From Desulfarculus baarsii DSM 2075 (lineage in GTDB: Bacteria; Desulfobacterota; Desulfarculia; Desulfarculales; Desulfarculaceae): a DNA stretch of 64,000 bases. The position numbers and the translations under genes were made by a program. Below the pieces are notes generated by a model, which saw nothing but the letters and a program-made list of their open reading frames with translations, was not told where the DNA came from and did not search any database. Shown here in pieces: positions 28,889-39,527 of the stretch. Each line of letters starts with the position of its first letter. Positions within the stretch are counted from its first letter, which is position 1. The stretch lies in contig NC_014365.1 of NCBI RefSeq assembly GCF_000143965.1, positions 1,081,501-1,145,500 of the forward strand, in the 5' to 3' direction.

Positions 28889-29884
28889 ATGGTAGGCACA
28901 TTTCGCAAGGCTTTGATCACGGTTATAATTGTCAATTATAATGCGAAGACGCATTTGGCAAGATGCCTGGATGCCTTGCGCGAACAAACCGTGCAAGACT
29001 TTCATATTGTCCTCGTTGACAACGCCTCCACCGACGGATCGCTGAACGAAATTTACACCAACGAAAACCTAACCGTGGTTCGCCTTGCAGAGAATGTAGG
29101 TTTTGCCGCGGCCAACAACATTGGGGCGCTAAGATCGCAAAGCGAATTCATTGCATTGCTCAACCCAGATGCTTTTCCCGCGCCGACTTGGCTCGAAAAA
29201 CTCATGGAGCACGCAAAAGCCTACCCAGAATACGCGGCGTTCGGCTCAACTCAGTTGCTTGACGCCAATTCTGACCTGTTGGATGGCGCTGGCGATGTTT
29301 TGTATTTTTTTGGTTTGCCGCGGCGTTCGAAACACCTCGAACGCGCAATACCTCTGCCGCCGACTCGGGAAGTTTTCAGTCCATGCGCCGCTGCCGCTTT
29401 GTATCGTCGGCATCTTTTCGTGGGTGTTGGCGGCTTGGACGAGGCGTTTTTTTGCTATTGCGAAGACGTTGATTTGGGCTTCAGGTTAAGGTTGCGCGGG
29501 TATAAATGTTTGCAGGTCGCCGACGCGATAGTGCGGCATGTCGGCGGGGGCTCAAGCGGACAAATTTCAGGGTTTGCCGAGCGACATGGCCATAGAAACG
29601 CTTTATGGATGCACATAAAAAACATGCCAATGCCGTTGTTGGCGCTGACCCTACCATGTCACTTCATTGCCGAGTTTGCCAAAGCAATTTTCGACATTGC
29701 AAGCCCAAGCCGTGGCCGTCTTGCGCAACGCGCGCATAACGTTAAATGCCGAATCCAAGGGATTTGCGAGGCGTTGGCGCAAATAGGTCCGATGATGCTT
29801 CAACGGAGGATCATCCAAGAAAAGCGTGTGATCTCCAGCTGTTCCGTGGCCAGGACGCTCTGCTGGCGTCCGTGGGCTAGTTGA
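28889..29884 (+). CDS. Glycosyltransferase family 2, rhamnosyl/galactofuranosyl-type
   Basis: 331 aa with ITVIIVNYNA, VDNASTDGS, NVGFAAANNIG, then LLNPDAFP (DxD-like) and GGLDEAFFCYCEDVDLGFRLR. These are the hallmarks of the WcaA/rhamnosyl GT2 branch (COG1216). The C-terminal 80 residues are helical and may contact the membrane. It is the last gene of the AT-rich cluster. Its stop overlaps the stop of the converging chemoreceptor gene by 8 bases, which leaves no room for a terminator. Confidence 0.88.
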   Translation: MVGTFRKALITVIIVNYNAKTHLARCLDALREQTVQDFHIVLVDNASTDGSLNEIYTNENLTVVRLAENVGFAAANNIGALRSQSEFIALLNPDAFPAPTWLEKLMEHAKAYPEYAAFGSTQLLDANSDLLDGAGDVLYFFGLPRRSKHLERAIPLPPTREVFSPCAAAALYRRHLFVGVGGLDEAFFCYCEDVDLGFRLRLRGYKCLQVADAIVRHVGGGSSGQISGFAERHGHRNALWMHIKNMPMPLLALTLPCHFIAEFAKAIFDIASPSRGRLAQRAHNVKCRIQGICEALAQIGPMMLQRRIIQEKRVISSCSVARTLCWRPWAS

Positions 29885-31415
29885 TTTCCGTGGACATTTT
29901 TTCGGGCAATGCGCGCTGAATCGCGGCGTCTTGCCCGCTGTTATACGATGTGCGGAACGTGCCCATTGTCGTAGCCAGATTGGCCGCTTGCGCCGCACCT
30001 TGCCCAGTGGCGTTATCTATTTCGCGCAGAGAATTGCTTATGCCGGCGATGCCCGTGTCTTGTTCTTGAGATGACATGGCCACCCCCGCCATCAATTCGG
30101 CCGCTTGCTCGATTATCTGTTGCACGCCGCCAAATGCTTCGTGGGTGGCGGTGACCAATTCGCCACTTTCTTGAATCTTGCCAATGGTGCCATCGATGAG
30201 TTGGGCGGTGTTGCGCGCGGCCTCGGCCACGCGCAGGGCCAGGCTGCGCACCTCGCCCGCCACCACGGCAAAACCTGCGCCGGCCTCGCCGGCCCGGGCC
30301 GCCTCGACGGCGGCGTTGAGGGCCAAGAGGTTGGTTTGGAAGGCTATCTCGTCGATGGTCTTCATGATATTGGCGACTTGGCGGCTTGATTCACGCAGCT
30401 CATCCATCGCCCCGGAAAGATTGGCGATACTTTTGCCGGACTGCACGACTTGCGCGGTCACCGCGCTCATCAGATCGGCGGCGGTCTTGGCGTCGGCCGC
30501 GTTTTCCCTGGTCAGGGCCGTGATGTCGTTGGCCGCGTGGGAAATCTGCTCGATGGCCGCGGCCTGTTGGCCGGCTTGTACGCCCGTGGCCGCGGCGACT
30601 TGCTGGGAATGGCCGATGACGTCGTTGAGTTTTTGCACGAAACGATTGAGCAACTTGGCTGCTTGCCCTATTTCATCCCTGCTTTGAATGGGCATTTCCA
30701 GAGTCAGGTCAACGTCATATTGGGTGAGCATTTCGACGAGCTTGGCCATTGGCTGGTCGACAAAACGTCGTACGGTTAGGAACAGGCACAGCGCTACCAA
30801 AACCAAAACGCCGGCCACCGCGGCCAAAGCTGTTTGCAGGGAGTTGGCTTTTAGCACGGCCATATTGTCGGCGGCTTCGGCTTCCGCTTGGCGCAAAGCA
30901 GCGGTGGAAAAACGATAGAAAGTGACGCCTCTGATTTCACCGTTGCGCCAGGAAATGTGGCAACGAATGCAGTCGGCGCTCACTTTGTGAGGCTGGTATA
31001 TCTCCAAGGCGTTTTGCGTTTGTCGATAGTGAGTCTGTGGTTCGTTCAACACCTTGGCGGCCATGGTTTTGTCCAGCCGCGAGCCCAAAAATTTGCGATT
31101 GGAGGAGTGAGTCGCAACTCCCGCGGCGCTGAACAGGCTGACTTCCTCCAGGCCCTTCAGTTGGCGTAGCGACTCTAAAAGGCTGGTGAATTTTTCCATC
31201 TCGCCGCGCACCAGCGAACCTTGCACGGCGCGTTCGATGGTGAAAAATAAATTGTCCGCCTGCTGCTTTTCGCTCTGTTCCAGCATCTCCAGGCGGTGCG
31301 CCGTCATCTCGGAGACCAGGTTGATGGTCCAGTTGTATTGAAATATCTGCACGGCGCATAGGGCCGTGATCAAGACCAAAGCCAGGGATATCAGCAGCTT
31401 GGTGCGCAGCTTCAA
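29877..31415 (-). CDS. Methyl-accepting chemotaxis protein with c-type heme sensor domain
   Basis: 512 aa. TM1 spans about residues 7-26. A periplasmic domain (27-190) carries a single heme-c site, Cys149-x-x-Cys152-His153, in a DUF3365-like context (ISWRNGEIRGVTFYRF). TM2 is at about 194-215, HAMP at 216-270, and a cytoplasmic signalling domain holds the MCP hairpin around 357-395 (EIAFQTNLLALNAAVEAARAG). No pentapeptide for CheR/CheB docking ends the protein. The start is TTG, overlapping the hydrogenase small-subunit stop as TTGA, with GGAGG 6 bases before it. It is thus the third gene of the hydrogenase operon and probably reads out that enzyme's redox output. Confidence 0.93.
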   Translation of the reverse strand: MKLRTKLLISLALVLITALCAVQIFQYNWTINLVSEMTAHRLEMLEQSEKQQADNLFFTIERAVQGSLVRGEMEKFTSLLESLRQLKGLEEVSLFSAAGVATHSSNRKFLGSRLDKTMAAKVLNEPQTHYRQTQNALEIYQPHKVSADCIRCHISWRNGEIRGVTFYRFSTAALRQAEAEAADNMAVLKANSLQTALAAVAGVLVLVALCLFLTVRRFVDQPMAKLVEMLTQYDVDLTLEMPIQSRDEIGQAAKLLNRFVQKLNDVIGHSQQVAAATGVQAGQQAAAIEQISHAANDITALTRENAADAKTAADLMSAVTAQVVQSGKSIANLSGAMDELRESSRQVANIMKTIDEIAFQTNLLALNAAVEAARAGEAGAGFAVVAGEVRSLALRVAEAARNTAQLIDGTIGKIQESGELVTATHEAFGGVQQIIEQAAELMAGVAMSSQEQDTGIAGISNSLREIDNATGQGAAQAANLATTMGTFRTSYNSGQDAAIQRALPEKMSTEIN

Positions 31416-32341
31416 TTGCGGCCTCCTTTGCCCCTGGCCAACTCGGTCTTGCGATAAAACGGCAGTTCGGCCGAACGTGCGAATCCCTCCGACGCGCAGC
31501 CGATGCACGGCGCGCCGGCGGCGATGCAGGTGTTGACGCCGCCATTCCAGAAACGCACCGTGCAATCGGCGTGGGTGATCGGCCCCAGGCAGCCCAGCTT
31601 GAACAGGCAACCCGGTTCGCCAAAGGTCTTGGCGAAATTTTCCCGCTCGTAGTCGGCAAACCGCGGGCATTGATCGTGCAAGATGCGACCATAAAAGGCT
31701 TTTGGCCGCTTGAGGGCGTCCAGGGGCGGCAGGCCCCATTGCAGTAGGTGAGCCAACGTCCCCACCAGCCAATCGGGGTGGGTCGGGCAGCCGGGCAGAT
31801 TGATCAACGGCGTTTTGACCCCTTGCGCCTCGAGGAATTCGGCCACGCCGACCGCGCCGGTGGGGTTGTTTTGCGCCGCGGGGATGCCGCCAAAGGCCGC
31901 GCAAGAGCCGAGGGCCACCACGGCCTTGGCCTTGGCCGCGGCGGCTTTGACCAGATCGGTCACCGGGCGGTGGCCCATGACGCACGCCTCGGGCATGCCG
32001 GCGGGTAGCGAACCCTCGACCACCAGCAGGTAGCCGCCGGCGTCGATGGCCTTGTCCACCGTGTCCATGGCGGTCTGACCGGTGGCCGCCGAGAGGGTGG
32101 AGTGGAACAATAAAGAGATGTAGCGCGTGATGACCCGAGCTGGCGAAGGCGCTTCGGAGTTTAAAAACGACACGGAGCAGCCGGAGCAACTCTGGCCCTG
32201 CAGCCATAGCACCGGGGCCTGGCCAGCCTCCATCCGCGCCAGGGCCTGGGCCAGGCTTGGCGCCAAGCTTGGCTCAAGTCCCATGACCGCGGCCAGGGTC
32301 GCGCCGAATTTCAAAAATTGACGCCTGGTTATGCTGGCCAT
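31412..32341 (-). CDS. [NiFe] hydrogenase small subunit, Tat-exported
   Basis: 309 aa. A Tat signal (TRRQFLKF, residues 5-12) is followed by a hydrophobic segment. The proximal cluster is bound by Cys52, Cys55, Cys147 and Cys185; the distal one by His222, Cys225, Cys245 and Cys251. The medial site has four cysteines (260, 272, 279, 282), where common uptake enzymes have a Pro and a [3Fe-4S] cluster, so three [4Fe-4S] clusters are predicted. There is no C-terminal membrane anchor. I chose ATG 32341 (GGAGA 5 bases upstream) over GTG 32344. The end overlaps the chemoreceptor start by 4 bases. Confidence 0.94.
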   Translation of the reverse strand: MASITRRQFLKFGATLAAVMGLEPSLAPSLAQALARMEAGQAPVLWLQGQSCSGCSVSFLNSEAPSPARVITRYISLLFHSTLSAATGQTAMDTVDKAIDAGGYLLVVEGSLPAGMPEACVMGHRPVTDLVKAAAAKAKAVVALGSCAAFGGIPAAQNNPTGAVGVAEFLEAQGVKTPLINLPGCPTHPDWLVGTLAHLLQWGLPPLDALKRPKAFYGRILHDQCPRFADYERENFAKTFGEPGCLFKLGCLGPITHADCTVRFWNGGVNTCIAAGAPCIGCASEGFARSAELPFYRKTELARGKGGRN

Positions 32342-32353
32342 CACGGTCTCCGC

Positions 32354-33856
32354 TCAGTGAACCGCGCAGGCCAGGCACGGATCGAACGAACGCACGATCC
32401 TGGCGGCCTCCAACGGGTTTTGCGGGTCGGCCACCGGCAGGCCTTCGAGGGACGACTCGACCGGGCCGGGCACGCCGGCGTCGTCGCGGGGCGAGCAGTT
32501 CCAGGTGGTGGGCACGACACACTGATAATTGGCGATGCGGTAGTCGGCGATCTCGATCCAGTGGCCCAGCGCGCCGCGCGGCGCTTCGATCAGGCCCGCG
32601 CCCGCGCCGCTGGCGGGCACGTCGAAGTCGGCATAGGTCGGCTCGCCTGGTTTGAGTTGGTTGATCCAGCGCGCGCAGGCCTCGGCCACCAGCTTGCATT
32701 CGATGGCGCGGGCGGCATGGCGGCCCATGGCCGAGTTGAGCTCGGCCGGTTGGCGGCCAAGAGCGCCGAGGAGCTGATCGACCATCTCCCGCACCTGGGC
32801 CTGGCCGGCCTGGTAAGCCACCAGAATGCGCGCCAACGGGCCAACCTCCTGCGGGCGATTGTCGTAGCGCGGTGCTTTCAGCCATGAATAGGCCCCGCTT
32901 TTGCGTGGCGCGGGTATTGTTTGGCCCTTGGTCGGATGCAGGCCGGACGGAGAAGAGAACAGCGAATGGGTGGTCTGCTCGGTGATCTTGGTCAGATCCA
33001 ACGACGCGGCCTGGCCATGGCTGACGCGTCCGGCTGGCAGCAGAAAGCCGTCCTCTTGGGGAAAGACGCCATAGGCCATGAAGTCACCGGGGCCGGCGCC
33101 ATGCTGAAAATACTCGGGAAACGCCGTGGCGACGGCCAGGATGTCGGGCAGGTAGGCCGTGTCGATGAAAACGCGCAACTGATCGATGATGGCGGCGTAA
33201 GCGGCGATTTTTTTGGCGCTGACCTGCTCGGTGACGCCGCCGGGCGCCAACGCCGTGGCGTGAGGAACCTTGCCGGCCCAGATGGCCACGGCCTGATGGG
33301 CCAAGGCGCGCATGTCAAGGGCCTGCAAATAGTGCTTCAGCGCTCCCACGTTGAGGCCGGCGTCTTGAATGTAATGGCCGGCGTAGCGCGGCAGAAACGG
33401 CGCGCCGGGGCTGATGGCCCCAGCCTTTCGCTGGCCGCTCACCCAATCACGCAGATCGTTCAAGGCCGGGTCCGCCCCGTGATAACCCAGAATGGCTGTC
33501 ACGTCGACAAAGTCTAGCGCGGAAAGTTGATAAAAATGAATAAGATGAGACTGAATATAATTGGCGCCCAAGATCAGGTTGCGCGCGATGACGCCATTGG
33601 GGGTCAGCGCTGGGTTATATATCTGCTCCTGGGCCAAAATAGAGGCCAAGCCGTGGGAGATGGGACAGACGCCACAGATGCGCTGGGTGATTTGCTGGGC
33701 GTCGAGTGGGTCGCGTCCTCTGAGTATGTTCTCGAAGCCACGGAACATTTCCCCCGCGCAATAAGCACTGGCCACCTTGCCGCCATCAAGCTCAAGACGA
33801 ATGCCCAAGTGCCCTTCGATGCGGGTCAACGGCGAAAGCTCAACTAGGGTGCCCAT
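32354..33856 (-). CDS. [NiFe] hydrogenase large subunit lacking a C-terminal extension
   Basis: 500 aa. The N-terminal nickel-site motif is RICGVCPISH (Cys61, Cys64). The C-terminal motif DPCLACAVH (Cys494, Cys497, His500) is followed directly by TGA. Most [NiFe] large subunits carry about 15 more residues that an endopeptidase removes after nickel insertion; here there is nothing to remove. Both nickel ligand pairs are cysteines, with no selenocysteine. The small subunit starts 12 bases later. No maturation genes lie nearby, so Hyp proteins must come from elsewhere. The enzyme would oxidise H2 in the periplasm, carried by the Tat signal of its partner. Confidence 0.95.
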   Translation of the reverse strand: MGTLVELSPLTRIEGHLGIRLELDGGKVASAYCAGEMFRGFENILRGRDPLDAQQITQRICGVCPISHGLASILAQEQIYNPALTPNGVIARNLILGANYIQSHLIHFYQLSALDFVDVTAILGYHGADPALNDLRDWVSGQRKAGAISPGAPFLPRYAGHYIQDAGLNVGALKHYLQALDMRALAHQAVAIWAGKVPHATALAPGGVTEQVSAKKIAAYAAIIDQLRVFIDTAYLPDILAVATAFPEYFQHGAGPGDFMAYGVFPQEDGFLLPAGRVSHGQAASLDLTKITEQTTHSLFSSPSGLHPTKGQTIPAPRKSGAYSWLKAPRYDNRPQEVGPLARILVAYQAGQAQVREMVDQLLGALGRQPAELNSAMGRHAARAIECKLVAEACARWINQLKPGEPTYADFDVPASGAGAGLIEAPRGALGHWIEIADYRIANYQCVVPTTWNCSPRDDAGVPGPVESSLEGLPVADPQNPLEAARIVRSFDPCLACAVH

Positions 33857-34251: not shown

Positions 34252-37095
34252 TCAGCCGAGAGCCTCCTTCACGGCGGTCACGCCATTTCTGGCGTTGCCC
34301 AACAGCCTGTAAACGCGCAAGGGAGGGGCGTCATTTCCGGGCAATGGGCCAAGGTTAGCGAATTTGGCGATGAGCAGATTCATCAAAAGATCGCTGGCTG
34401 TCGTTATGACCAGCTTGAGTTTTCCTTTTTGCTCGATCGCCAGCATTCGCACAATATCGATCACGGCGACGCGATTGAGGTCGTCAAGGTGCGCGAAAGG
34501 TTCATCAAGGAAATATGTGCCGCCAGCTTCCCGTGCACGCGCAAGGAAGATTGACAGTGCAAGGTCTTGGCGCTGACCACGGCTGAAATATTTGGAGGGA
34601 GAGAGCGGGACGCCATTTTCAATATAGGCCACGATATCGGTAATATTGATTTGGTTGTCATGGCTGGAGAAATCAACTTTGTTAAAGATGCTGTTTGTAT
34701 TCATTCTGGAGAATAACGCAAACATGACATCTTTCAAGTCAGAAAGAGCGGCGCGTCTTTGTTGGGAAAATTGTTGGCGATTAAATTTAATGATATTATT
34801 GCACGATGAGATTTTCTTGTTTAGCAATGTTATGCACTCATTTATTTTATCAGCAGAACTTTGAAGACTTTCACGCTTGGCGCCATTGGTTAAAATAAAT
34901 ATGCATGCGTCGATGTTTGCTAATTCATTCCGAGCGCTTGATGCAACATCGTTGTCTGCTTGAATAGAGTGCTTGAGAGATAGTAATTCCTCGTCAGAAA
35001 ATGGTATGTGTTTGCCAATAGACTCCCACGCAAGTTTGAAAGCTATCTCGTTATGATGAAGTTTATTAATTATTTCCATGGCTGATGTATGTCTGTCTGA
35101 CGCTTGCTCAAAGGCCAGTTCAAGAGTAGCCAGCTCTTCCTCGGTGCGGTGCAAATCCTGGCGAGCAGCGGCATCTTTTGCTTTCAGTTCTTCGGCCGCC
35201 ACCTCAAAAAACCTGGATAATGCATCGCGCAAGCCAAGAAGAGAAAGTTTCTCTGGTGCTGAAATATTCAGCGCGCTGTGGATGGACTCCATGTCATGCC
35301 ACAGCTGAGCGAGATGGCCGGCGACATTCAGGCCTCTGATGATGTCTTTCAACGACCGGTGGATATCGTCGAAATCAAAATCATCGACAAGGCGTTTGCA
35401 TGAAGAAATATAGTCATTCCACTTTTGTTCACGTTCGTTAATTTCTTGGCGGATTATGGACAAGCGCTCTTTGTTGGAATTGTAAGTATTGATGTCCTCC
35501 GTTAGCGCGCAAATTTCCTGCTCGATTCGTTCTAATGACTGGCGAAGTTGAGCTTCCTTTGAAGAAGAATAGTCGATGCCGAGGTCTGTGCTGCTGGAAA
35601 CTGCATTGAACAAATCGTGCGCGGTTTTCCAGTCGTGCCCACAGGTTGGGCACACACTTTGAGTTTTTATGGCGGGCAGGGCATTGCGCGCGTAAACTTT
35701 CAGCTGCGTAAGATCGTCCGTTATCTTGGCTAATTGGCTGCGTAAAATCGCCCGTTTAGACTGTGCTTGATCCAGCCTGCCTTCAAGAATTGAAGCTTTG
35801 GCTGTTTCGGTTTTTACGAGATTTGATAGTTTGTGTGACTCAGAGCGAACACGGTCAAGCTGATAGTTGTTCTCCACGGCTTGTGGATAGACTTCAAGTA
35901 AATATGACGCGCTCTGCAGCAAACTTTTGCGCGCCATAAGGTCGATCTTATAATACTGGTTTGTTTTAAATATTTCCTCGACTGTTTTGGATGATATCTC
36001 TGGATAATATGTAACAATGGAAGTGATTGTTGAGGCGACATGTTCACAAATATCAGATACGGAAGAATGCTGTGCGGCGAGTGATGCAACTTCCATGTTA
36101 AGTGTATTGATCTGCTGCTTTTTTTGGGCAATTTGCGTGGAAACGTTGGCCAAATTATCCAGTTGAGCGTGCCTGTCCGCACCGGACGCTTCAGCTTTTT
36201 CTTTTAGCTGAGTTATATCATCAATAAGTTGTCTGATGTAATCAATTTCTTGTTTTCTCTTTTCGATATGCGCGACAAATCGATCAAGCTTGTTCGAAAT
36301 TCTCTGCTTCATGTCGACGATTTCATGGAGATCGTTAACAGCGCCAAGCGGTTCGATCTGGATATTTAATAGCAATATGCAGGCATTGATTGACTTTTTC
36401 GTATCGCTGAAAATATGCTCATATCGAGCGGGGTCTGGTGGCAAGTCTCCAGTATCGTCTATGAGTTGCTTAATTTTTTCTGCCCGCCTTTTTTCTAGCT
36501 TGAGATTTGCATTAAGAAGTCTTATGAAGTTTTTAACTATATCGTTTATATCATTAAGATGACTCATGCCAAGTAAATCATAAAAAATTTGTTCACGCAG
36601 ACCTGATGATTCGCTATCCACCATCGTTGAAAGCGAATCTTGATAAAAAAAGTGTTTGCCCCATAAATGGTTTTGATGCAGCTCCAGCAGGCGAGCGTAA
36701 TCATGATTTTCGGCACTTAATACGGAATTTTTTATAAACGTATTTAGGTATTCCAACGATGATTTAACTATATCGCTATCGCGCTGATCTGATTTATCAG
36801 TTTTCCATTTGCCATCATTGCAAGTTACATATTCGCCAGAAATTTCGCCACAGATCAGAAAGCTATCTTTTTTTGTCAAGCACGCACATTCACTCCAACA
36901 ATTATTCATATCTGCATTAATACGTTTCGAGCGAATTCGGCGCGTAAACAATAATTCAGCAGCTTGCAATAGCGTGGTTTTACCTGTTCCATTGGGCGCA
37001 TATATCAAAGTGATCGGTGAGGAAAAGTCGAGCTCAATGCTGCCTGCAAGGCCACGAAAATTAACAACTTTTATGCTAGAGAATTGTACTGACAT
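34252..37095 (-). CDS. Rad50/SMC-like ABC ATPase of a three-gene conflict system
   Basis: 947 aa. Walker A is NGTGKTT (35-41). A long coiled-coil arm runs to about 480, a CPTC zinc hook (Cys482, Cys485) marks the hinge, a second arm returns, and the C-terminal head has SRGQRQDLALSIFLAR (signature) and FLDEPFAHLDD (Walker B plus D-loop). This is the layout of Rad50/SbcC and of LmuB-type ATPases of Lamassu defence. The start is ATG 37095, inside the end of the middle gene; a TTG at 37122 is less likely. AT-rich codon use sets it off from the hydrogenase genes. It probably binds DNA ends and licenses the effector. Confidence 0.88.
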   Translation of the reverse strand: MSVQFSSIKVVNFRGLAGSIELDFSSPITLIYAPNGTGKTTLLQAAELLFTRRIRSKRINADMNNCWSECACLTKKDSFLICGEISGEYVTCNDGKWKTDKSDQRDSDIVKSSLEYLNTFIKNSVLSAENHDYARLLELHQNHLWGKHFFYQDSLSTMVDSESSGLREQIFYDLLGMSHLNDINDIVKNFIRLLNANLKLEKRRAEKIKQLIDDTGDLPPDPARYEHIFSDTKKSINACILLLNIQIEPLGAVNDLHEIVDMKQRISNKLDRFVAHIEKRKQEIDYIRQLIDDITQLKEKAEASGADRHAQLDNLANVSTQIAQKKQQINTLNMEVASLAAQHSSVSDICEHVASTITSIVTYYPEISSKTVEEIFKTNQYYKIDLMARKSLLQSASYLLEVYPQAVENNYQLDRVRSESHKLSNLVKTETAKASILEGRLDQAQSKRAILRSQLAKITDDLTQLKVYARNALPAIKTQSVCPTCGHDWKTAHDLFNAVSSSTDLGIDYSSSKEAQLRQSLERIEQEICALTEDINTYNSNKERLSIIRQEINEREQKWNDYISSCKRLVDDFDFDDIHRSLKDIIRGLNVAGHLAQLWHDMESIHSALNISAPEKLSLLGLRDALSRFFEVAAEELKAKDAAARQDLHRTEEELATLELAFEQASDRHTSAMEIINKLHHNEIAFKLAWESIGKHIPFSDEELLSLKHSIQADNDVASSARNELANIDACIFILTNGAKRESLQSSADKINECITLLNKKISSCNNIIKFNRQQFSQQRRAALSDLKDVMFALFSRMNTNSIFNKVDFSSHDNQINITDIVAYIENGVPLSPSKYFSRGQRQDLALSIFLARAREAGGTYFLDEPFAHLDDLNRVAVIDIVRMLAIEQKGKLKLVITTASDLLMNLLIAKFANLGPLPGNDAPPLRVYRLLGNARNGVTAVKEALG

Positions 37096-37699
37096 CGTCT
37101 GAATCCCCGATATATGATTCAATCAAAATGATGATTTCATCCTCGCTTGCGTTGGCCAGTTGACGCATGAGGATCTCATCATCTTTGCATAATGATATTA
37201 GCGTGCTATCAGCATTTGCGGCTGCACTTTTGGCAAAAGGCAAAGACAGTATGGGTATGCGCCTGATCCGCTCTTCCCAGGCGGAAGGATCATCAGGATC
37301 GCCAACCGGCCAAATTATTTGTTTGCGACACAGGTATAAGTCGCTTTCAAGGCTCTGAATTGTGCCGTGTAGATCGTCGCTGCCCACGACTCTATTTTCT
37401 TCATCAAGCGCAGGCGATCTATACGTGTTCATGTCATGCGCAATCGCCAAGATAAGGTAGCCATCAACTATCTTATGCTTACGGCGCTTTTCGCCAAGTT
37501 TTTGCGATAATATGGCCAGGCCTTCACCATGAGAACTTTTCAGCTTTGACGCGATAGGTTCGTCGATTACGACTAGTGCTACCACGGCATAGTCTGATTC
37601 CCAAAGTGTGCAATTGGCCGCATCTGCCGCGCTATCAGCTAGTGTTAGTCCGACGGGATTAGCGTAGGAATCAATACAATCAACACATGCGTTATGCAT
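37076..37699 (-). CDS. Middle component of the SMC-linked conflict system
   Basis: The 207-aa product is of unknown family. It has a Cys-rich start (ACVDC), a conserved-looking core KIVDGYLILAIAHD followed by LESDLYLCRKQIIWPV, and an acidic end. No membrane segment or nuclease motif is visible. Its size and place, between an effector-like gene and an SMC-like ATPase with overlaps on both sides (8 and 20 bases), match the LmuC or middle component of Lamassu and ABC-three-component systems. The assignment rests on context only. Confidence 0.65.
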   Translation of the reverse strand: MHNACVDCIDSYANPVGLTLADSAADAANCTLWESDYAVVALVVIDEPIASKLKSSHGEGLAILSQKLGEKRRKHKIVDGYLILAIAHDMNTYRSPALDEENRVVGSDDLHGTIQSLESDLYLCRKQIIWPVGDPDDPSAWEERIRRIPILSLPFAKSAAANADSTLISLCKDDEILMRQLANASEDEIIILIESYIGDSDDVSTIL

Positions 37700-39527
37700 A
37701 AGACACGCTTCCTGAGCTTAACATGCCAATTATACCTGATAGCCTCATGCAATTTATTTTGCTTGTCGTTGCGTCTTGATAGCAGTTTTCAATAGTCGTC
37801 AGCGGCAATAAATATATTGAAAATGGTCGCGGGGGTGATCCGATGCTTTCGCTAGGCGCGTGTGTTATGGATGACGCGCCTGGCGTGATCTGGTCCTCAT
37901 CGATGTGTCCCATGCCGGGAGCAATGCACATGATCAGTGGCTTTTTGTATTGCGTTAGCGAATTTTCCATGGCATTTTTCATATCATATGCATGTTTTGA
38001 TTTGTCAGACCAAATATTAATATCAATATTGCCAATATTTGTTCTGAGTTGCGCTGTCTCTTCCGCAACTAGGTGCGCGATATTGCAATACATAAGTACG
38101 GAAATGCAACGCAGGGCCTTTATCAGATCATCTCGGTGCTCATGCAGCTTATCGCATAAAGAGGTCGAATAGCTTCCTGGCGCCATTCCACTTTTTATCA
38201 AGGCGATAAGATTATCTGCTTGCACGCCCTTAATGGTCGTTTTGATCTGTAATTTCAACCAACAGAGCGCTGAAAATATCTCCTTGGTTGCATGATGCCC
38301 GTATCCGCAAGAGCAGTTTCTGCAAATAAATCTCGCAAGCTCATAGGGTTGATGCTCAAATTCGCTATACTCTCTAAGCTGATAGCTCAGGCCATGATCG
38401 TGGTTTGTTGTTATCTGATTGTGTAGCGTGGCGGGCCAATTATGTCTTTCAGCATCAGGTACAGTTTTGAACTTCAACTTGCCTGATATCAACAGGGGTT
38501 CCGTTGATCGCACCAACCTGGCAACAAAGTTTCCGTTCTTATGAAGCCTTGTCCCTTTTTTGATCTCATGTTTTACGATATGCGCAGCATCGGCATGAAT
38601 ATATATTCCACTTAAATTACGTAGTTTGTCGTTTGACTCATCCTTGTCATGCTTCCCCATCGCATGATTGGCCAGTGCGATTGCAAAATGGTTATGAGCT
38701 GTAATGTCAAGATTAGTAAATATTCTATTTAACGCATCTTGCCATGCTGAAGCATGTGGGTCTTTTTGATATAATTGCCCGGCAACAAGTATGTATTTTC
38801 GTGTTGCTTCAGGAAGCAGATTGGTCTTGTTGCATACTGTAACCATTTCACTGGTGGGGGTTTTGCCATCACCATTATAAATGAAGTCGGAGCAAATAAT
38901 TGGCCAAATATCGAGGCCATTTGTCTGTATGCAAACCTGCGAAACGCCGCCATCTAAATAATCAATCTGTCCCAACTCTGCACATTGCTCTGGGAAATGC
39001 TTAACATAAATTACGCTTTTAGTCGTGAGCTTTTCCGTGCCATCAGCAGGATATCTTAGCCAGCACCATCCATAATTATATCGCCGTTTGGCCCCGGGAA
39101 ACCCCTCCTCGTCCTCGCGCCAGCTTTTTATGATTTCCGTTCCGTGATGCCGTGTCCTGTCTGTAAAAATCTCATTTAATTTATTGCCATGCGTAAATCC
39201 GAACCCCGCTATAAGCACTATCTTCCCTTTGTATTTATTGATTAAATCATTTATCGTATACCAATCTTTAACGCCAAATGTCAGTTCTGGAAACATGATT
39301 ATAATTGGTTTATTGCCTGGAAAATGATCGCCTATTTCTTGTTCCAAAAACTCCTTGACCAAGTTTACATATTCAGGGCGGCTGTCGTCATATAGCCGCT
39401 CTCTTTTTGGTGGTGGCGTTTGCACCAGGCATAAATTCAGATGGTTGCTGTCCACGAAATCGCCGGGCACTTTTACATTGTGCACATACAAGCCATTGCC
39501 TTTTTTTGCCCCGCGTGCCCTCGGCAT
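37692..39527 (-). CDS. Nitrilase-fold protein, candidate effector of the conflict system
   Basis: 611 aa. Residues about 30-300 fit a carbon-nitrogen hydrolase: Glu81 in MFPELTFG, Lys176 in IYVKHFPEQ and Cys212 in WPIICSDFI. These make the Glu-Lys-Cys triad with family spacing, and a typical later strand, NHFAIALANHAMG, follows. The C-terminal half is unrelated and has a Cys-rich ICRNCSCGYGHH patch, possibly a metal site. Nitrilases hydrolyse amides or nitriles; in NAD synthetase they release ammonia. The first gene of the operon is where Lamassu-type systems keep their toxic effector. The target is unknown. AAGGGTG precedes the ATG. Confidence 0.72.
   Translation of the reverse strand: MPRARGAKKGNGLYVHNVKVPGDFVDSNHLNLCLVQTPPPKRERLYDDSRPEYVNLVKEFLEQEIGDHFPGNKPIIIMFPELTFGVKDWYTINDLINKYKGKIVLIAGFGFTHGNKLNEIFTDRTRHHGTEIIKSWREDEEGFPGAKRRYNYGWCWLRYPADGTEKLTTKSVIYVKHFPEQCAELGQIDYLDGGVSQVCIQTNGLDIWPIICSDFIYNGDGKTPTSEMVTVCNKTNLLPEATRKYILVAGQLYQKDPHASAWQDALNRIFTNLDITAHNHFAIALANHAMGKHDKDESNDKLRNLSGIYIHADAAHIVKHEIKKGTRLHKNGNFVARLVRSTEPLLISGKLKFKTVPDAERHNWPATLHNQITTNHDHGLSYQLREYSEFEHQPYELARFICRNCSCGYGHHATKEIFSALCWLKLQIKTTIKGVQADNLIALIKSGMAPGSYSTSLCDKLHEHRDDLIKALRCISVLMYCNIAHLVAEETAQLRTNIGNIDINIWSDKSKHAYDMKNAMENSLTQYKKPLIMCIAPGMGHIDEDQITPGASSITHAPSESIGSPPRPFSIYLLPLTTIENCYQDATTSKINCMRLSGIIGMLSSGSVSYA

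Follow-up and report, generated by a model that had tools for sequence, protein, structure and literature searches.

This locus raises the question of why the large subunit (LSU) of a [NiFe] hydrogenase of Desulfarculus baarsii DSM 2075 ends at the last residue of its nickel motif, and what such an enzyme does in an operon with a methyl-accepting chemotaxis protein (MCP). In the window (the whole 64,000-nucleotide stretch of DNA that was analysed) the operon lies on the minus strand in the order LSU (33856-32354), small subunit (SSU; 32341-31412) and MCP (31415-29877). The features are as follows.

32354..33856, minus strand: [NiFe] hydrogenase large subunit, 500 amino acids, ATG start, tail-less C-terminus
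32357..32383, minus strand: nickel motif DPCLACAVH at the C-terminal end of the large subunit
32354..32356, minus strand: stop codon TGA of the large subunit, directly after DPCLACAVH
31412..32341, minus strand: hydrogenase small subunit, 309 amino acids, with the Cys/His set for three [4Fe-4S] clusters
32243..32341, minus strand: Tat (twin-arginine) signal at the start of the small subunit, TRRQFLKF..., with an approximate 3′ limit
29877..31415, minus strand: methyl-accepting chemotaxis protein, 512 amino acids, PF00015 with E 7.6e-39
30774..31409, minus strand: two transmembrane helices and periplasmic single-Cache sensor of the MCP, model mean pLDDT 91.6
31197..31217, minus strand: SLVRGEM motif of the MCP, its Met being the presumed sixth heme ligand
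30957..30971, minus strand: CIRCH, a sequence motif for attachment of c-type heme within the MCP periplasmic domain

The original prediction was that the nickel motif is followed directly by a stop codon, and this was confirmed, with the motif at 32383-32357 and TGA at 32356-32354. The LSU matched Pfam PF00374 with an E-value of 2.6e-154 and NCBIfam NF033181 with 629 bits (cut-off 600). Because the PF00374 match reaches the final model position (508/508), the domain is complete and the tail alone is missing. A stop codon immediately followed the last His in all 39 tail-less relatives that carry the motif at the same place (17 TAA, 16 TGA and 6 TAG), indicating that the tail is absent by nature and ruling out both chance and the reading error at the stop that had been raised as a possible objection. 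Read-through of the TGA as selenocysteine was rejected on the same grounds. The SSU starts 12 nt past the LSU stop in the same frame in the window, and this spacing and frame differ from relative to relative, which disfavours a read-through fusion. The view that the frame runs on into a tail, the stop being either recoded or an error of sequencing, for which the coding of selenocysteine by TGA and the in-frame position of the SSU could be cited, is thus already refuted and has practically no chance of being correct.

It had also been proposed that the enzyme matures without a protease and that the genome be checked for a cognate protease gene. The genome consists of one contig of 3,655,731 bases (99.98% complete) and encodes two large subunits matching PF00374. 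The one outside the operon (C1:1568750-1570339) has a 15-amino-acid tail (VIDPHTNEVYKFKVL), and the sole HycI protease gene of this complete genome lies <0.2 kb behind it; the single HycI gene therefore adjoins the other, tail-bearing hydrogenase, in keeping with the proposal. HypD, three CheA-type hits and the flagellar protein FlhA were also found, so that maturation and motile chemotaxis are possible. As described in PMC7294309, the Ralstonia membrane-bound hydrogenase (MBH) without its tail is still active and present in lower amount. By analogy, this result supports the view that an enzyme of group 1 build can mature tail-less, and it would fit a sensor of low abundance.

Upstream of the hydrogenase the window contains a three-gene cluster (34252-39527, minus strand). 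It encodes a 956-amino-acid SMC/RecN-like ATPase whose best PADLOC hit was LmuB (E 2.2e-33), a 207-amino-acid protein with a weak hit to an ABC-3C middle component (E 0.0042) and a 611-amino-acid protein with no Pfam hit. The cluster may represent a defence system of the ABC-three-component or Lamassu-like kind.

The class of the enzyme was judged from both subunits. The LSU carries both CxxC motifs within its PF00374 domain and was placed with group 1 sequences, and the SSU has a Tat signal, three predicted clusters and a PF14720 domain, as in group 1; a C-terminal tail cut by a HycI-type protease, a usual but not defining trait of that group, is missing. The nearest named relative of the LSU is from Desulfocarbo indianensis (66% identity). 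In a main tree of 74 rows, whose tails were trimmed beforehand and which leaves out HoxC, four group 2d-like rows, L013 and further near copies, 35 tail-less rows fell on one side of a branch with bootstrap 100 and SH-aLRT 94, and the tail state changed once. A one-off loss of the tail was thereby rejected. The nearest tail-bearing rows, L008 and L081, both have the normal gene order. On this tree evidence, the enzyme belongs to a separate tail-less clade within tail-bearing group 1. A clear position among uptake enzymes that bear tails had been named as an outcome that would count against the original prediction; the clade does lie inside group 1, but all of its members that we examined are tail-less.

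Three divergent tail-less LSU-SSU-MCP loci that were found via the sensor domain and have CxxCH in the receptor (L165, L166 and L168) were included with HoxC and L013 in an extended tree of 69 rows, which lowered support for the main clade to 80/92. The position of these three loci is unsure in that tree. A tree holding all 32 tail-less LSU-SSU rows together was not rejected (p-AU 0.62) and was 6.3 log units ahead of the free tree, a result that does not prove a single origin. L165 and L166 have CxGD at the position of the proximal-cluster CxxC, and their receptors have a KGNM motif. The Neomarinimicrobiota large subunit L013 (L013:2266-3756) is also tail-less and ends in DPCLACAIQ, with Gln for the last His; it has the normal gene order and a long branch of unsure place, and was left out of the clade count.

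The original prediction had leaned towards regulatory hydrogenases, and this kinship was rejected. In a first tree of 92 of 129 different large subunits, from which near copies and most Campylobacterota sequences were dropped, HoxC and the tail-less Campylobacterota enzymes (which we call group 2d-like from their DVCSVCTTH ending) were far from the tail-less clade. HoxC fell outside the clade in the extended tree as well. Beside the active site, the LSU has CGVC and LSALDF where HoxC has CGIC and LFFMPDF. The RH-type gas-channel residues, which we take to be the sole sequence hint on the low turnover that had been suggested, are absent from the LSU. Kinship with CooH is likewise unsupported, the SSU being of group 1 type as judged from its sequence and the tree holding no CooH sequence. 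Like the group 2b enzymes HoxBC and HupUV, which act with a kinase such as HoxJ, this enzyme has a tail-less LSU and a medial Cys in the SSU and is a presumed sensor tied to a signalling protein. HoxBC, however, resides in the cytoplasm and signals through a histidine kinase, as described in PMC6978683, whereas this enzyme does not group with HoxC, carries a Tat signal and is linked to an MCP. PMC7294309 gives groups 2b, 2d, 4c, 4e and 4g as naturally tail-less [NiFe] enzymes, and group 1 is absent from the groups that it names.

The nearest solved structures to the LSU by sequence are those of the [NiFeSe] hydrogenases of group 1 (HysAB; PDB 4kl8, 1cc1 and 5jsu). These enzymes have three [4Fe-4S] clusters and no membrane anchor, and the same is predicted for the enzyme studied here. 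It differs from them in having Cys (DPC) rather than the selenocysteine of DPUxxCxxH, in scoring 506 bits against the [NiFeSe] exception model NF045518 (cut-off 780), and in lacking the tail (the HysA chain of 5jsu has 507 residues, and the match ends at 492). The reversed gene order and the chemoreceptor in the operon are further differences.

Inspection of the SSU sequences pointed to export of the enzyme. The Tat signal of the window SSU scored 20.7 bits against TIGR01409 (cut-off 16.7) and 21.4 bits against PF10518, slightly below the cut-off of 22.7. A twin-Arg motif was present in 36 of 36 clade SSUs (RRQAL in L118), whereas a Tat motif was looked for in HoxB and not found. The window SSU has no C-terminal anchor, and a strongly hydrophobic C-terminus was seen in none of the 36 clade SSUs. 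Comparison of twelve Cys columns and the distal-cluster His showed that the medial position is Cys in all 36, as in HoxB, and Pro in HoxK of the MBH; three [4Fe-4S] clusters are therefore predicted. In three SSUs of the Planctomycetota set (L146, L147 and L148), Glu or Asp takes the place of the second Cys in the proximal CxxC, and the MCPs of these loci are also heme-less.

We next consider the genes that surround the LSU in other genomes. Large subunits of the relatives came from the same phylum, Riflebacteria, Planctomycetota, the phylum of L007 (labelled Omnitrophota) and others, and members of the tail-less clade occur in several phyla. Gene context was counted for 111 different complete LSUs scoring at least 200 bits, comprising 38 tail-less sequences (36 clade members, L013 and HoxC) and 73 tail-bearing ones. 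The reversed order LSU-SSU was found at all 36 clade loci. Among the tail-bearing LSUs, the SSU was upstream in 67, downstream in 3 (L116, L117 and L153) and missing from the stretch in 3. These three large subunits with reversed order have DPCLSCAVH as their motif, and in the L116 genome a HycI hit (G374:C1:2941362) lies between the large and small subunit. An MCP was directly downstream at 30 of 36 clade loci compared with 0 of 73 tail-bearing relatives, a comparison in which the LSU searches are biased by a query alignment of eight MCP-linked members and the downstream stretch of many tail-bearing loci is only about 1.45 kb. The link between the LSU and a chemoreceptor in one operon, already pointed out for the window, is thus conserved. 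No MCP adjoined the hydrogenase at five of the 36 loci (L139, L140, L141, L143 and L145), and at L104 the contig end cuts off the position of the next gene; the enzyme can therefore persist without an adjacent MCP. Other chemotaxis genes were present near the copies in L009 (CheA, CheW, CheY-like and CheX) and L007 (CheA and CheW), and CheW and HypF were found near that in L006.

In the MCP, as expected for this family, two membrane helices flank the periplasmic sensor and the PF00015 signalling domain follows. Its start codon was inferred from relatives beginning MKLxTKL and is likely a TTG that overlaps the SSU stop codon (TTGA). The model of the sensor matched Cache domains, including those of WalK and CitA, and, with weaker E-values, the heme sensors GSU0935 (3b42), GSU0582 (3b47) and Tll0287 (5b82). 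A Cache fold with CxxCH is the pattern of the sCache_heme and heme-c MCP sensors, and the receptor shares the periplasmic Cache fold, one CxxCH and MCP output with GSU0582/GSU0935, DcrA and the sCache_heme domains (Tll0287/DUF3365). Its sensor nevertheless scored below the cut-offs of the corresponding Pfam models (12.5 bits against PF11845, cut-off 24.1; 14.3 bits against PF21563, cut-off 27), to which 11 and 5 of 24 members, respectively, gave weak matches. A sequence search of the PDB with the sensor profile gave chance-like hits only.

In the 24 heme-bearing MCPs CxRCH was invariant, as was the Met that ends S(L/I)xRG(E/Q)M. The CxxCH motif and this Met were jointly present in 24 of the 30 adjacent MCPs and jointly absent in the other 6, where F, A, A, A, V and Q replace the Met; all six belong to the Planctomycetota set. 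The heme-c chemoreceptors GSU0582/GSU0935 have a His/Met heme, the ligands in GSU0935 being Met60 and His144, with the Met released redox-dependently (PMC8396549). The joint loss of both motifs fits a His/Met heme of the GSU0935 kind, which would likewise be predicted here. PMC8396549, as a source on heme-c chemoreceptors, describes no hydrogenase partner for those of the GSU0582/GSU0935 type.

The sensor profile was also used to find receptors of the same type. Its only match in the D. baarsii genome was the MCP of this operon. The 17 best hits in the phylum belong to the alignment of the profile itself and so match by construction. The hits that carry information are the eight next ones, which lie away from the tail-less hydrogenases found by the LSU search, and G213, G321 and G301, each of which proved to adjoin a tail-less hydrogenase. 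Six heme MCPs of the same type have no adjoining tail-less hydrogenase (L167, L169, L170, L171, L174 and L175). At L167 (4475-6247) no hydrogenase is nearby, and the neighbouring open reading frames appear, as judged by eye, to encode CheA-, CheW-, CheR- and CheB-type proteins.

A hydrogen sensor tied to chemotaxis is the likely function of this locus, well supported by association, and we consider it probable that the LSU, SSU and MCP form an enzyme-coupled hydrogen chemoreceptor. In the proposed mechanism, the Hyp system would load the LSU with its NiFe(CN)2CO site without involvement of a C-terminal tail or protease. The LSU and SSU would then fold together and exit through the Tat pore on the signal of the SSU. 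H2 would be split in the periplasm, and the electrons would cross the three [4Fe-4S] clusters, whose ligands are present, and pass from the distal cluster to the c-type heme in the Cache domain of the MCP, the operon partner. Reduction would change the axial ligation of the heme, probably through coordination by the invariant Met in the manner described for the Geobacter sensors, and this change would alter the coiled coil and CheA activity such that the cell follows or avoids H2. Loss of the tail would be an ancestral, conserved trait of the clade, in line with low-level production of the enzyme for sensing and not for bulk respiration. At pH 7 the H2 couple lies at about -414 mV at 1 atm and about -296 mV at 1e-4 atm (Nernst). 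Since the potentials of the Geobacter heme sensors (-156 and -251 mV; PMC8396549) are above this couple, transfer would be downhill, and by analogy these values allow H2-to-heme transfer at environmental H2.

The main doubts about this mechanism come from the five loci without an MCP, the six heme-less receptors and the NO-sensor preprint PMC12889525. The heme route cannot be universal, given that 6 of 30 adjoining MCPs are heme-less. The hydrogenase might instead dock on the MCP and signal by contact, as HoxBC does with its kinase, with the heme serving as an extra input (for example, for NO or O2) or as a lineage-limited electron sink. The six receptors that lost the heme motif and Met while the operon was kept fit this explanation, as does the report in the preprint of heme Cache domains fused to signalling modules that bind NO and act as its sensors. 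We regard it as unlikely, as the heme motif was retained in 24 of 30 MCPs, with a pattern of Met conservation that fits a redox switch.

It is also rather improbable that the hydrogenase simply takes up or evolves H2 in the periplasm and passes electrons to a soluble cytochrome c, with the MCP watching the same redox pool and the operon reflecting co-regulation. The group 1 build with its full Cys/His cluster set, the clade loci without an MCP and the heme MCPs found apart from tail-less hydrogenases are all compatible with such an arrangement. However, a tail-bearing group 1 enzyme accompanied by a protease of its own is already encoded in the genome, the three-gene operon contains no cytochrome gene, and the coupling of the genes, tight in the window as the TTGA overlap shows, recurs at 30 of 36 clade loci.

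The enzyme-coupled hydrogen chemoreceptor, which remains our preferred reading, was compared with chemotaxis-linked hydrogenases in the literature. HydDB describes [FeFe] group C2 as 'chemotactic (putative)', with H2 sensing proposed via methyl-accepting chemotaxis proteins, and its table shows no chemotactic [NiFe] class (PMC5037454); the [FeFe] enzyme is an unrelated metalloenzyme. An MCP cluster of 87 genes appears without comment among the neighbours of [NiFe] large subunits in PMC12727194, and PMC3543383, as a source, covers only [FeFe] enzymes, and MCPs apart from them. We found no description of a [NiFe] hydrogenase-chemoreceptor operon in open-licence PMC papers.

The observation that the LSU stops at its nickel motif is right and more meaningful than originally claimed. 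H2 is a common currency of anoxic sediments, and how anaerobes find it is poorly known. We lean towards the interpretation that these enzymes form a widespread, undescribed tail-less class of group 1 [NiFe] hydrogenases that acts as the detachable sensing head of a chemoreceptor, with H2 electrons written directly into a heme, giving true hydrogen taxis, and that loss of the tail accompanied a change from respiration to sensing independently of groups 2b and 4. The purpose of the LSU tail is an old question, for which a complete tail-less clade offers a natural experiment; the clade has close tail-bearing relatives, and some genomes hold both kinds. If the interpretation is true, the three-gene enzyme-chemoreceptor module would make hydrogen taxis testable at once.
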